DNA from: a virus
Virus record (IMG/VR): IMGVR_UViG_3300041809_000519
Span: 1-36,986 of that record
Strand: one strand, 5' to 3'
Length of the DNA stretch: 36,986 nt
The position numbers and the translations under genes were made by a program. Shown here piece after piece: positions 15,978 through 20,239 of this stretch; within the stretch, counting starts at the first letter, position 1; each line of letters begins with the position of its first letter. Below the pieces are notes generated by a model that saw only the letters and a program-made list of their open reading frames with translations, searched no databases and was not told the origin of the DNA.

Positions 15978-16313
15978 ATGGCAAAGTCGACCTATCACCA
16001 GCCGATCGGAGAGCCGCGCCCCAAGCGCGGCGATCTGATTCATACCAATGTTGGTGACCGGCGCGAGCGCACCTGGCTTGTCCTGCGCACTCAGATTCTC
16101 AAGAATCGCATCTGTGAGCCAATGGGCGGGATCATGGCCCAGCGGACTAAGATTTGGCGAGAGCGATGGTGGGCTCTCGAGCCAGAGATGCGCGTTGCTC
16201 TTTATCGAAGCGCGGAGCGCGCTGGCGGTCAATTGATGCACGAATCAGTACCATTTCCAGTGAAACGCAAGCCTACATTTGAGCAGCACATGAGGAGAAA
16301 AACGTCCAGATGA
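15978..16313 (+). CDS. Hypothetical basic protein
   Basis: A 111-residue protein rich in Arg and Trp: RERTWLVLRTQILKNRIC, then IMAQRTKIWRERWWALEPEM and KRKPTFEQHMRRKTSR. Its ATG follows the previous stop without a gap, and its own stop overlaps the dnaB start (ATGA). A DNA contact or helicase accessory role is conceivable from charge and position, nothing more. Confidence 0.65.
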   Translation: MAKSTYHQPIGEPRPKRGDLIHTNVGDRRERTWLVLRTQILKNRICEPMGGIMAQRTKIWRERWWALEPEMRVALYRSAERAGGQLMHESVPFPVKRKPTFEQHMRRKTSR

Positions 16314-17707
16314 GTACGGTTCCCGATCTAACCCTGGATGCAGGGCTCCCAGCCAACATCGACGCAGAGAAAACGATCCTCGGGGCAATTCTCCTCGACA
16401 ATGAAGCTCACGTCAAAGCGGCCGAAATTCTCAAGCCTGACGATTTCTCGCTGGACTCTCATCGCCGTATTTTCCTGCGCATGTCGGAGCTCGCAGACGC
16501 TTACCGCGCGATCGATATCATCACACTCAAAGATCATTTGCAAATGCATAAGGAAGTCGAGGCAGTTGGCGGCGTGGCCTACTTGGCCTCTCTCACTGAG
16601 GGCTTGCCGCGCCGTCCTGTCATTGAAGATTACATCCGCATCGTAAAAGATAAATCCCTGGCTAGGCGTCTGATGGGAATTTGTTCGGCGACGATCGCGC
16701 GACTAGCCGACCAGGCGGAGCCGGCAATGAACCATGCCATTTCGCTTGGCATCGAAGTGGAAACGGCTCTTAGCTCCACGATCGAATCGGACTTTCAATC
16801 CCCGGAGCAGTTTTTTGCGGCCGAGTATCCAACCGCAGAATCGATGATTGAGAAGCGCTCCAGGTCGCACGGGATCGACACCGGCTATCGCGCATTCGAC
16901 GAGATGACCAGCGGCCTCCAGAGAGGCGAACTGATGATCATCGCAGCCAGGCCCAGCATGGGCAAGACAGCGCTCGCCATGAATATCGCAGAACATGTAT
17001 CCGTGAATTGCGAAGGCCGCGTTATCGTAAATTCGATGGAGATGAGCAGGGAATCTCTTCTCGGCCGCGCCATCTGCTCGCGCGCTCGAGTACCATTCAA
17101 AAAATATAAGAACGGGACACTCTCAGAGGATGCGAAGCAAATGCAAGAATTCACCGGAGCCTACCAGGACTTCCGGCGATCGCAACTTCTTATCGACGAT
17201 CAATGCAGGACGGCGATCAAGATGTCAGCGCACTGGCGCGCGCTAAAACAAAGATTCGATTTCGATCTTGGGATCGTCGATTACCTTACTCTATTTCAGC
17301 ACGAAGAGAATTCGCGCCGGTACCGCGATACCCGTCAACTTGTGGCGACAGATTGCCTCACTCTAAAGCTGCTGGCTAAGGAGCTCAACATTCCAGTGAT
17401 AGCCCTTTGCCAACTAGGACGAGAAGTGACAAAGAGGACCGACAAGCGACCCAACCTGGCCGATCTCAGAGAGTCAGGGAATATCGAAGAAATTGCCGAC
17501 GTGATCTCTTTCGTTCATCGCGAAGCCTACTACAATAACGACGCCGACATGAGCGCCGCGGAGCGCACCCGTACTGAATGGATTATCGGAAAGCAGCGGA
17601 ATGGCCCCGTGGGAACGGTGGACCTAAACTGGCTTGCCTACTGCCTCCGCTTCGAGGAGCCATTTGACGCAGCCGATCTTCAGCGGCAGGAATACATCAA
17701 TTGGTGA
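16310..17707 (+). CDS. dnaB: Replicative DNA helicase DnaB
   Basis: The 465-residue protein is a full-length DnaB-family hexameric helicase. The N-terminal domain (AEKTILGAILLDN...DDFSLDSHRRIFLRM) is followed by the RecA-like motor: Walker A ARPSMGKTAL with K219 and T220, Walker B FDLGIVDYL with D324, the H4 motif ADLRESGNIEEIADV (about 384-398), and RNGPVGTVDLNW near the end. It unwinds DNA at the fork in the 5'-3' direction. No helicase loader or primase is in the window, so these may come from the host. The insertion sites used by inteins in other DnaB proteins (Walker A) are uninterrupted here. Last gene of the early block. Confidence 0.95.
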   Translation: MSTVPDLTLDAGLPANIDAEKTILGAILLDNEAHVKAAEILKPDDFSLDSHRRIFLRMSELADAYRAIDIITLKDHLQMHKEVEAVGGVAYLASLTEGLPRRPVIEDYIRIVKDKSLARRLMGICSATIARLADQAEPAMNHAISLGIEVETALSSTIESDFQSPEQFFAAEYPTAESMIEKRSRSHGIDTGYRAFDEMTSGLQRGELMIIAARPSMGKTALAMNIAEHVSVNCEGRVIVNSMEMSRESLLGRAICSRARVPFKKYKNGTLSEDAKQMQEFTGAYQDFRRSQLLIDDQCRTAIKMSAHWRALKQRFDFDLGIVDYLTLFQHEENSRRYRDTRQLVATDCLTLKLLAKELNIPVIALCQLGREVTKRTDKRPNLADLRESGNIEEIADVISFVHREAYYNNDADMSAAERTRTEWIIGKQRNGPVGTVDLNWLAYCLRFEEPFDAADLQRQEYINW

Positions 17708-17720
17708 GCAGAGACGGCAA

Positions 17721-17744
17721 TAGCCGGGCCTTTCGGCCCGGCTA
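17721..17744. terminator. Hairpin between the converging blocks
   Basis: A perfect 10-base-pair, GC-rich inverted repeat with a four-base loop (stem TAGCCGGGCC, loop TTTC). It lies 14 bases after the dnaB stop and 70 bases before the end of the - strand lipoprotein gene. Neither side has a clear T-run, so it is not a textbook Rho-independent terminator, but its position and near-palindromic form fit a two-way terminator for both operons. Confidence 0.65.
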
Positions 17745-17813: not shown

Positions 17814-18383
17814 TTACTTGATCTCAGCCTCCGACAGTTGCAATGAATCAGCAAGGGCATTCCACTGCGCTTTTAATACGCCCTCATAGGTCGGATGCAG
17901 CTTATCCGGTTTAGCACACGGCACCCGGCCAAGATGCAGGTTGTTCACGTTGGCTCGTGGCCTTGTAAATGTCACCAGACGATTACTCGTGCCCTGGTTT
18001 TGAAAGTACGTGATGATCGATTCAATTGCGCTGACCAGGAGATCGATGAGTGGAGAGTAAACCTTGGTCAGCGGAATCACGGCCGCGATCGCCTCGATGG
18101 TGTTCAGCGCGTCAATTATTAGCGCTGCAGGCCCGCCAGATTTCCATGTAGCAATCTGCTGCTGTAGCGTCGCCAAGGCTTGGCTGAGCTCGGACGCCCA
18201 GGGTACATTACCTGCGATTCTGAGAATACCCTGCACGGCGCCAATGATTACGTTGAGCACGGCCGTGACCGAGAAACCACAGGCGGTCATCACGAACGCC
18301 ACTGGTGCGATCGCCAGCATCCCGGCGAACCTGCCGGCAGTTCCGATCGCTGCCAGCCCTTTCAAAAACATTCTTCGATTCAT
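17814..18383 (-). CDS. Predicted twin-arginine (Tat) lipoprotein
   Basis: The 189-residue protein begins MNRRMFLKGLAAIGTAG, a close match to the Tat motif (RRxFLK), followed by a hydrophobic stretch and a lipobox-like FVMTAC with C35 as the candidate lipid site. The rest is Ala/Ile-rich and amphipathic (IDALNTIEAIAAVIPLTKVYSPLI). GAGAGGGAAC precedes the ATG. I recall similar small lipoproteins in Acidobacteriota prophages. Possible roles are superinfection exclusion or the outer-membrane step of lysis; neither is shown. It is the last gene of the late block. Confidence 0.7.
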   Translation of the reverse strand: MNRRMFLKGLAAIGTAGRFAGMLAIAPVAFVMTACGFSVTAVLNVIIGAVQGILRIAGNVPWASELSQALATLQQQIATWKSGGPAALIIDALNTIEAIAAVIPLTKVYSPLIDLLVSAIESIITYFQNQGTSNRLVTFTRPRANVNNLHLGRVPCAKPDKLHPTYEGVLKAQWNALADSLQLSEAEIK

Positions 18384-18392
18384 AGTTCCCTC

Positions 18393-19166
18393 TCAGTTGA
18401 TGGCCGCAAGATCGGCCTGAAGTTGCGCGAGGTTGAAGTGATTAGGTGAAAGCCCGTTGGCAGAAATGAAGTCCTGCGACAAGAGAATGTGGACCTCCTG
18501 GACGTTTGCATACCAGTATTTCCGAGTCATCTTGTAAATTTGACCCCAGGAAATGAAATAGATGAACTCGGGATCATACTTGAGCACAAAGACGCAGTGC
18601 CCACCGGCAATCGACGTGTCCCCCGTCGTATCCCAGGGAATCTCCGGGTTTCCGGAATTGTTCATCACCTGGTTAGTGACGGTAAGACCGATGTAGGCAC
18701 CGCCAAACAGACTGATCCCGCGCTTGACAGAAATCAGGTTGTGCGGGTTCGCATCGACATAGGCCAGGAGCTCGTGACCGGCGAACGTCTGCTTCCGCCA
18801 GTCGTTTAGAACATCCAACTCCACACCGCCATTGTCCGTGTTTGGATTACCAAGAACATATCCGTCCCAGGACTCGTAATACTTCAACACGGTCGAATCC
18901 GGAACCGTGATCTCGCTACTGGCGTTTGCGGTCAAGACTTGGATCGCGTGGGCAACTCCGGCGATCGTGCAGTCTCCAAGGCCATCCGGACTTCCCGGAG
19001 GATTATTAGAGTCTGGTCCGTTCAACATCATCCCGAATTCTGTTATGCCTTTTGACCAGTCACATGACGCTGGTGGTGCGGGCAGCTTTGGACTGAGGTA
19101 GCGCTCCAACTTCAGCGATCGGCTGTCCGTCTTGAATGCCTTCACTCCGAGTTTGAACCTGTGCAT
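18393..19166 (-). CDS. Papain-like cysteine peptidase-fold protein
   Basis: The 257-residue protein has a papain-like arrangement: GLGDCTIAGVAHAIQVL (candidate nucleophile Cys at about residue 65), SIAGGHCVFVLKYD (candidate His), and YFISWGQ, where papain has Asn-Ser-Trp-Gly. The Asn is replaced by Ile. No signal peptide is seen. The ATG at 19166 has GAGGGAGAAATC directly ahead of it and is preferred to a longer frame that would run into the previous gene. The protein resembles phage/Acidobacteriota C1-like sequences of unknown substrate. It follows the lysis genes, so a role in attacking the envelope or a host protein is possible. Confidence 0.7.
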   Translation of the reverse strand: MHRFKLGVKAFKTDSRSLKLERYLSPKLPAPPASCDWSKGITEFGMMLNGPDSNNPPGSPDGLGDCTIAGVAHAIQVLTANASSEITVPDSTVLKYYESWDGYVLGNPNTDNGGVELDVLNDWRKQTFAGHELLAYVDANPHNLISVKRGISLFGGAYIGLTVTNQVMNNSGNPEIPWDTTGDTSIAGGHCVFVLKYDPEFIYFISWGQIYKMTRKYWYANVQEVHILLSQDFISANGLSPNHFNLAQLQADLAAIN

Positions 19167-19177
19167 GATTTCTCCCT

Positions 19178-19426
19178 CTATGGCTTTGGCGGTTTGGAAT
19201 TTTGCATCGGCTTCCAGGTCTTGTAGAAGCCCCACAAGCTGATCGCGAGCGCGATCATTCCGCTCAACCATCTTGGCATACCATCATAGACGGTGAGTAC
19301 GAATTGATGAAATGGCTGATTGAAAGTAAATGCGGCCAGGAAGAAAGCCCAAATTCCGGCTACAACGTGAGCCCATCCACCCTTGGACATTGCCCAGGCG
19401 ACGATCCATTGCCATATTGTTTTCAT
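19178..19426 (-). CDS. Small membrane protein, holin candidate
   Basis: An 82-residue protein with at least two hydrophobic segments (WAHVVAGIWAFFLAAFTF at about 18-35, and MIALAISLWGFYKTW at about 57-71) and a basic C terminus ending KPPKP. Its ATG overlaps the stop of the cell-wall hydrolase gene (ATGA). Size, topology and position next to the hydrolase fit a holin, the protein that lets the hydrolase reach the wall; the sequence itself gives no family match. Confidence 0.65.
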   Translation of the reverse strand: MKTIWQWIVAWAMSKGGWAHVVAGIWAFFLAAFTFNQPFHQFVLTVYDGMPRWLSGMIALAISLWGFYKTWKPMQNSKPPKP

Positions 19427-19836
19427 GTTTTCACCTTGAAAAAGATTTGTCCGGCGATGATCGCGGTTTGCGTTAGCTCCGCAAAATTCCAGTCAGGCCG
19501 CGACGCATCGGCTGCGTAGTAGAGCGTGGCGCCCCCGGTGATATCGGTCAAATCGCAAGCCAGAGCCTGATTGACCATCTGCTCGGCGACGGCATATTGC
19601 GGATCGCCCTCAACCGGCCAGATGTCGGCCTCAGATTCCTTTGCCTTCATCTCGGGCGGCGGGCTGATTGACGTGAACTGTTCTTTCTTTGTGGCCTCAG
19701 CGTATAGCGATGTGTTGTTTTTGATCGCGCGGTTTTGAAGCACATTGACGACCGAACGCATCCCTGCCTGGCCACCGCCGCGATTTTCCCGCCAAGCGCA
19801 TAGCGCCGGAATCGAAATTAAGAGACAGTTGCCCAT
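19423..19836 (-). CDS. SleB-type cell-wall hydrolase (endolysin)
   Basis: The 137-residue protein matches the SleB/Hydrolase_2 family: ALCAWRENRGGGQAGMRSVV with the probable catalytic Glu (E17), VVNVLQNRAI, and a later ITGGATLYYAADA and IIAGQIFF. These enzymes cleave the glycan strand of peptidoglycan as lytic transglycosylases. The ATG at 19836 with AAGG ten bases upstream is preferred to the upstream frame start at 19902, which would overlap the previous gene. It should act on the murein at the end of infection once the membrane is opened. Confidence 0.85.
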   Translation of the reverse strand: MGNCLLISIPALCAWRENRGGGQAGMRSVVNVLQNRAIKNNTSLYAEATKKEQFTSISPPPEMKAKESEADIWPVEGDPQYAVAEQMVNQALACDLTDITGGATLYYAADASRPDWNFAELTQTAIIAGQIFFKVKT

Positions 19837-19852
19837 TTGTAAACCTTGCCCT

Positions 19853-20239
19853 TCAATGTCTCCCCGAAATAGAATTCGATCCAGATTCCTCGACGCCATC
19901 ACGGATAGTAGACCATTTGTTTTGATGTAGGAAGTAGGCTGTGCCGCTGGCTACTAGAAGATGACCGCTACGATAGGCCCAGGTATACAAAAACCGCCAT
20001 CCGGAAAGACTGGTGTCCGGCTCCGGCATTCCTCCAACGATCCCGCTCGCAATAATAAAGAGTACATAGTCAAACCAGATGTCGTGTACGGGAAGTCCGG
20101 CGACGGCAGCACCAATAAAAACAGCAGCCCCAACCGTCAAACCCTTTGCGATAGCCGGAATCTTTGCGATTAACACGGCCGTGGATTTGAAAAATCCCGT
20201 GCTATACATGGTCCCGATCACATGTCTCGATCCGCTCAC
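19853..20239 (-). CDS. Membrane protein of the lysis region
   Basis: A 128-residue product with hydrophobic segments at about 30-48 (AKGLTVGAAVFIGAAVAGL), 55-70 (FDYVLFIIASGIVGGM) and 82-105, and a polar C terminus. The GTG at 20239 has AGGGGTGAAAGATA upstream; an ATG at 20209 is the alternative but has no clear site. I associate the MPEPD...WAYRSGHLLVASGTAYFL wording with conserved small phage membrane proteins. A holin or antiholin role is possible, so it competes with the 19178-19426 product for that job. Confidence 0.65.
   Translation of the reverse strand: MSGSRHVIGTMYSTGFFKSTAVLIAKIPAIAKGLTVGAAVFIGAAVAGLPVHDIWFDYVLFIIASGIVGGMPEPDTSLSGWRFLYTWAYRSGHLLVASGTAYFLHQNKWSTIRDGVEESGSNSISGRH

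Follow-up and report, generated by a model that had tools for sequence, protein, structure and literature searches.

The surest statement these sequences allow is that phages appear repeatedly to place an enzyme of predicted papain fold beside a helical protein predicted to be directed to the membrane, exchanging either partner, and the two genes probably act together as a functional two-part device of the cell envelope. The pair was studied in the window, which is the whole stretch of DNA analysed, one virus record 36,986 bases long. The sequence-only reading had placed a lipoprotein with a twin-arginine (Tat) signal next to a papain-like protein at the end of the late operon. Both ORFs are exactly where that reading had put them, and they close the late operon in the following arrangement.

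17722..17743, no strand: perfect inverted repeat between convergent operons, likely a two-way terminator (sequence; fold z -5.3)
17814..18383, minus strand: Tat-signal protein, 189 aa (ORF; conserved MNRRMFLK and Cys; structure model)
18393..19166, minus strand: papain-fold (xylellain-like) protein, 257 aa, Cys66-His190 dyad, Ile205 at the Asn place (phrog_19005; structure model)
19178..19426, minus strand: one-TM holin-like protein, 82 aa (hydropathy peak only)
19423..19902, minus strand: endolysin-like cell wall hydrolase, Hydrolase_2 (PF07486 below cut-off; PHROG endolysin, 2.9e-08)
19853..20239, minus strand: two-TM holin-like protein, 128 aa (hydropathy peaks)

The Tat-protein gene lies downstream of the papain-like gene, with a gap of 9 nt between the ORFs. 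A purine-rich ribosome-binding site is present at both starts, and that of the Tat-protein gene overlaps the stop codon of the papain-like gene. The minus-strand late run terminates with the pair and is followed by the strong hairpin at 17722-17743, which separates it from the convergent plus-strand replication operon. The last of the plus-strand early genes, encoding a DnaB-type helicase, ends at 17707. The holin-like, Hydrolase_2-like and two-TM genes just upstream of the pair are likely to be a lysis cassette. The PF07486 match of the endolysin-like protein scored 26.8 bits, just below the cut-off of 27, and the 82 aa and 128 aa holin-like proteins have no family match in Pfam or PHROG. Apart from the Tat-signal protein, the window has only one lipobox-like ORF of at least 40 aa; it is 42 aa long and lies within another gene, and hence no separate o-spanin is seen. 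No tyrosine integrase was found in the window, and the earlier suggestion that the pair could be made from a prophage is not supported for this record itself. An early-operon protein of 111 aa (15978-16313, plus strand) resembles, by eye, the product of the gene directly after the Tat-protein gene in two related records, L004 and L007. It has the motif PKRGDLxxTNxGxRRERTW in common with L004:8548-8850 and, again by eye, appears to be the same gene in another location.

The papain-like protein matches phrog_19005 over residues 4-256 of 257 (E 2.9e-32), an entry that PHROG leaves without an assigned function or partner. When a profile built from 48 relatives was searched against the PDB, it found xylellain at E 1.8e-5, and the AlphaFold model (pLDDT 87.5) is matched by xylellain (3ois; Z 20.6, rmsd 2.6, 207 residues) and then by cathepsins and zymogens. 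The xylellain-type short C1A peptidases, which according to a sequence survey have been acquired by Myoviridae and Siphoviridae (PMC10380794), resemble the window protein in their papain fold, in the Cys and His, and in a short N-terminal segment. The window protein is, however, only 17 % identical to xylellain, has a hydrophobic residue for the active-site Asn, does not match Pfam Peptidase_C1 (PF00112), and is paired with a Tat-signal protein.

Cys66, His190 and Trp207 are each kept in 48/48 relatives. The position of the papain Asn is occupied by I (22), V (13), L (8), A (2), S (1), N (1) or D (1), such that 43/48 relatives have I, V or L there. Judged by this alignment, a Cys-His dyad without the Asn is the conserved state of the family. 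The sequence-only reading, which had a papain-like protein with Cys and His in place and Ile for the usual Asn, is thus borne out (Cys66, His190 and Ile205), and a papain fold is predicted. As a hydrophobic residue at the Asn place is the family state, Ile205 is no sign of decay. The possibility of a decayed enzyme was rejected, because Ile is typical of the family and the Cys, His and Trp are kept.

A scan of IMG/VR using the papain-like protein as a single sequence found none, and the alignment-based scan with the family found 76 loci. In L007 (5713-7236), the papain-like gene holds a 261-residue intein that precisely separates the active-site His from the Cys following it (GGH and C), with a below-cut-off match to LAGLIDADG and a further match to the intein portion of a model from NCBI. 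The papain-like gene of its near relative L004 is without an intein. Inteins tend to occupy residues that are unable to vary, and an important active-site region fits the placement of this one exactly there. One papain-like protein (L090:4899-5807) has a Tat-like signal of its own (MPGFNRRNALKFLG...).

Homologues of the Tat-signal protein were found in 15 virus records other than the window. They are 18-45 % identical to the window protein and have MNRR-x-F-L-K and one Cys in common, MNRRMFLK being invariant in the first five (36-45 % overall identity). The RR motif is kept in 12/15 alignment rows. The Pfam TAT_signal match of the window protein is below the cut-off (14.1 vs 22.7 bits), but the RR is conserved and Tat export of this protein is likely; an unusual signal for a phage protein, it appears to be real. 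Since the L020 homologue has a Sec-like signal and the L021 and L022 homologues have no signal, not every version requires Tat export. TatC is present in 3/3 bacterial genomes that carry papain-like relatives.

The lipobox did not fare as well. In the window it reads MTAC, with Cys35 as the predicted lipidation site. The strict consensus, [LVI][ASTVI][GAS]C as quoted in PMC6139136, is found in 0/13 signal-bearing homologues, many of which read x-E-G-C, though the Cys is invariant among them and a small residue at -1 is conserved. With the strict consensus absent, the case for lipidation is weaker than first implied, and lipidation is probable rather than certain. An uncleaved anchor is a possible alternative.

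The predicted mature part of the Tat-signal protein is a four-helix bundle with a conserved C-terminal helix (model pLDDT 75.9), and hydropathy peaks are at residues 29 and 87 only. The structure matches are generic helical bundles only (best Z 8.9). The phage lipoprotein Ltp, which is helical, is absent among the structure matches listed, and a BFVD structure search found nothing at E 0.001 or better. There was no family above cut-off in PHROG, Pfam or NCBIfam, no relative in the genome collection, no match among plasmids or annotated phages, and nothing convincing in a profile search of the PDB.

The co-occurrence of the two genes is upheld in relatives in part. In 10/16 records of the Tat-protein set, a papain-fold gene adjoins the Tat-protein gene, and both gene orders are found. 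The adjacent gene is of the window type in 8/16, with the papain gene first in the window, L004, L007, L021 and L022 and the Tat-protein gene first in L012, L020 and L025. A canonical Peptidase_C1, with PF00112 above the Pfam cut-off and, by eye, the papain residues Gln, Cys, His and Asn all present, adjoins a window-type Tat protein in L010 (6322-7176) and L017 (6643-7485). The 6/16 records with no adjacent papain-fold gene count against an obligate pair. L016 and L036 have a window-type papain-like gene elsewhere in the record, and L005, L006, L008 and L015 have no papain-fold gene; records of the set may be fragments.

L020, L021, L022, L025 and L036 were found via the protease, and the fair count is therefore that of the ten records found via the Tat protein, some of which are closely related (L004/L007, L005/L006 and L015/L016). 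A papain-fold gene is adjacent in five of these ten. Only six of the ten contain such a gene at all, and among these the proportion is five of six (P 4e-7 under random gene placement at one gene per 950 nt).

The two partners are also exchanged. Starting at the protease gene, L023 and L025 match at 98.6 % identity over 2,561 nt. On the upstream side of this gene, L025 has a window-type Tat protein, whereas L023 and L024, which are identical in this region, have a different, Sec-type lipoprotein. This natural swap is the most telling of the observations. Comparison of L023:1-760 with L025:4300-5000 places the break just before the protease start, with the lipoprotein gene exchanged. The mirror-tree correlation of the two proteins is weak (r 0.43, P 0.037, 8 pairs).

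Chance adjacency as the main explanation was rejected on the basis of both gene orders, the partner swaps and the adjacency in 5/6 records. Alternatively, these could be two unrelated accessory genes that are often neighbours as phages accumulate such genes at the same spots. Their separate occurrence in 6/16 records is in keeping with this, as are the many papain-like records without a window-type Tat protein (one is found in 15/35 of the records and genomes searched, a set chosen to include known positives). We consider it unlikely, given the two gene orders, the swapping of both partners and the 5/6 adjacency in the set that is free of query bias.

That differing helical-looking proteins fill the same slot beside one enzyme family would also suit an enzyme and its keeper, where the helical protein inhibits or activates the peptidase and its location decides where the enzyme is on. 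Papain-type enzymes with a separate inhibitor gene would be a parallel, the signal-less L021 and L022 versions would meet the enzyme in the cytosol, and the papain-like model aligns to zymogen forms starting at residue 1. As the bundle resembles only generic helical bundles and no known inhibitor at a telling score, we regard this explanation as a minor contender.

A survey centred on the protease gene, which left out the window and L001-L003, found a lipoprotein-like ORF within 1.2 kb in 30/69 distinct loci, though a few of the calls are doubtful (L091 and L068). The rate of such ORFs per kb is 0.21 near the gene, 0.036 far from it and 0.010 on the other strand. The Poisson value overstates independence, because approximately 16 of the 30 loci are related prophages of the acetic-acid-bacterium type. 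Using a narrower Tat-lipoprotein criterion, the count is 17/71 loci. An earlier scan, later replaced, gave 8/110 adjacent vs 12/574 elsewhere (P 0.008).

In the acetic-acid-bacterium prophages, Tat lipoproteins of a second family, whose lipobox is better, are encoded 0.1-2.3 kb upstream of the protease gene. A single lipoprotein family across these and the window-type phages was considered and homology is not claimed, as the signal carries the match: full-length profiles give an hhalign value of 81.6 % (E 1.1e-5) and the mature parts alone 7.5 %. The Tat lipoproteins are identical in phiKX1 and phiKX2 and distant in phiKM1. All three exist as isolates, and PHAST classes phiKM1 as active, phiKX2 as questionable and phiKX1 as incomplete (PMC8566455). 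In at least two Komagataeibacter phages, the protease gene and a gene for a Sec lipoprotein overlap. In one of them, phiKM1, the overlapping genes are next to an integrase gene, and the stretch separating the Tat lipoprotein gene from the protease gene contains HicAB and a RelA/SpoT-type synthetase gene (L132; phiKM1 42798-51977). This region looks like an accessory or defence hotspot. A comparable arrangement in phiKX2 includes an antirepressor. Yet another type of Sec lipoprotein, the two examples of which look alike by eye (L038:3924-4565 and L044:312-998), is encoded upstream of papain-like genes.

The position of the pair in these prophages, beside an integrase gene and in one case with toxin-antitoxin-like genes, makes an accessory (moron-type) exclusion module one of the two leading readings. 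The helical membrane protein and the peptidase effector would then block the entry of competing phages or alter a receptor. Exclusion genes are usually expressed from a prophage or early, whereas the window pair is in a late operon with no tyrosine integrase found, and neither Pfam nor PHROGs revealed similarity to a known exclusion protein. Consistent with exclusion are the phiKM1 and phiKX2 arrangements, the swapping of lipoproteins beside a constant protease gene, the variation in the position of the pair between phages, and the existence of phage lipoprotein exclusion factors such as Ltp (PMC3952083). We rate exclusion as nearly as likely as the role in lysis considered below, with the enzyme and keeper third.

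Among bacterial genome loci with a papain-like relative, a Tat-lipoprotein-like ORF was found within 1.5 kb in 3/38. One of the three looks spurious and only the two Acetobacter loci are credible. L094-L104 are Acidobacteriaceae chromosomes in which a conserved papain-like relative is near cytochrome-like and radical-SAM-like genes (by eye). The Tat protein is absent from these loci, and the five examined are outside any prophage. As the bacterial homologues mostly lack a window-type partner, the protease family also works without one. The best chromosomal relatives of the window papain-like protein are acidobacterial (54 %), and this similarity suggests an acidobacterial host for the window.

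Our preferred reading, held tentatively, is that the pair is a late envelope module in which a Tat-exported helical anchor docks or controls a papain-fold peptidase that acts in lysis. Late in infection, both proteins would be made as one envelope-directed module. The helical protein, once exported by Tat, would stay at the periplasmic face of the membrane and serve as docking site or controller for the peptidase. The peptidase would enter the periplasm in complex with its folded Tat partner or else through the holin lesion, and cut envelope proteins as part of lysis. What is observed is that both genes are present, that features of each are conserved and that the two are associated across phages. 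From them we infer export, lipidation, physical contact, peptidase activity, a substrate and a benefit to the phage.

A lysis-stage module is favoured because the pair comes after holin-like and endolysin-like genes within one operon, because a peptidoglycan enzyme is near 6/10 pairs (some matches being below cut-off), and because the window showed no further credible lipoprotein ORF. The Pfam peptidoglycan-enzyme and holin families gave approximately seven matches in 100 near ORFs (of 174) and none in 100 far ORFs (of 150). PHROG endolysins occur among both near and far ORFs, and these domain tallies are no more than suggestive of a lysis context. The near ORFs also include glycosyltransferases, methylases and terminases. 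The adjacency counts, the partner swaps, the Tat-like signal of the L090 papain-like protein and the invariant Cys, His and Trp were counted as support for the module. The 6/16 records with no adjacent papain-fold gene, the signal-less and Sec-like versions, the lack of a strict lipobox, the weak mirror tree and the 3/38 bacterial loci were counted against it. Also against a role in lysis, the L010, L012 and L017 pairs are in nuclease/methylase regions and not in lysis cassettes. Sec-type partners are unable to carry a folded peptidase, which speaks against the module as well.

A more doubtful variant is a delivery device in which the Tat protein, itself helical, picks up the already folded peptidase in the cytosol and takes it through the membrane before the holin triggers. 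An effector in its folded form, able to lyse the cell or to cut a receptor, would thus be preloaded in the periplasm, and phages would replace one of the two components, carrier or enzyme, while retaining the other. Obligate Tat hitchhiking is not upheld as a rule, as Sec-type partners occur. Tat hitchhiker complexes such as PaoABC (PMC4273604) would account for a folded pair in which one protein alone has a Tat signal. Co-export of the window pair is a proposal, and as a general mechanism it is at odds with the Sec-type partners of related phages.

The spanins (o-spanin Rz1 and u-spanin gp11; PMC6139136) are similar to the window arrangement in that a lipoprotein is encoded in or near the lysis genes. 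The Tat-signal protein differs in having a Tat rather than a Sec signal and a predicted four-helix bundle, and the C-terminal TM segment of a u-spanin was not seen in its hydropathy profile. No spanin was found in 91/677 surveyed phages of Gram-negative hosts (PMC6139136), and an alternative to spanins is therefore not far-fetched. Ltp of phage TP-J34 (PMC3952083) is likewise a phage-encoded lipoprotein. However, it belongs to the lysogeny module of a Streptococcus phage, whereas the window gene is late and has a Tat signal and a protease neighbour.

Among the matches listed in the open-licence PMC literature, PMC9239132 included, there was no report of a Tat-exported partner of a phage peptidase, nor, among the listed matches, of a phage Tat-signal protein tied to spanins, exclusion or phage lipoproteins. 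Phage peptidases of the xylellain type are already known (PMC10380794), and the accessible portion of that survey does not give their role. A partner predicted to be exported by Tat beside them appears to be new, and the kinds of component are known. The conserved partner with an export signal points to the periplasm as where to look for that role and to a helical membrane protein as what to look for, and the Komagataeibacter phages phiKX1, phiKX2 and phiKM1 are isolates that offer such a pair.
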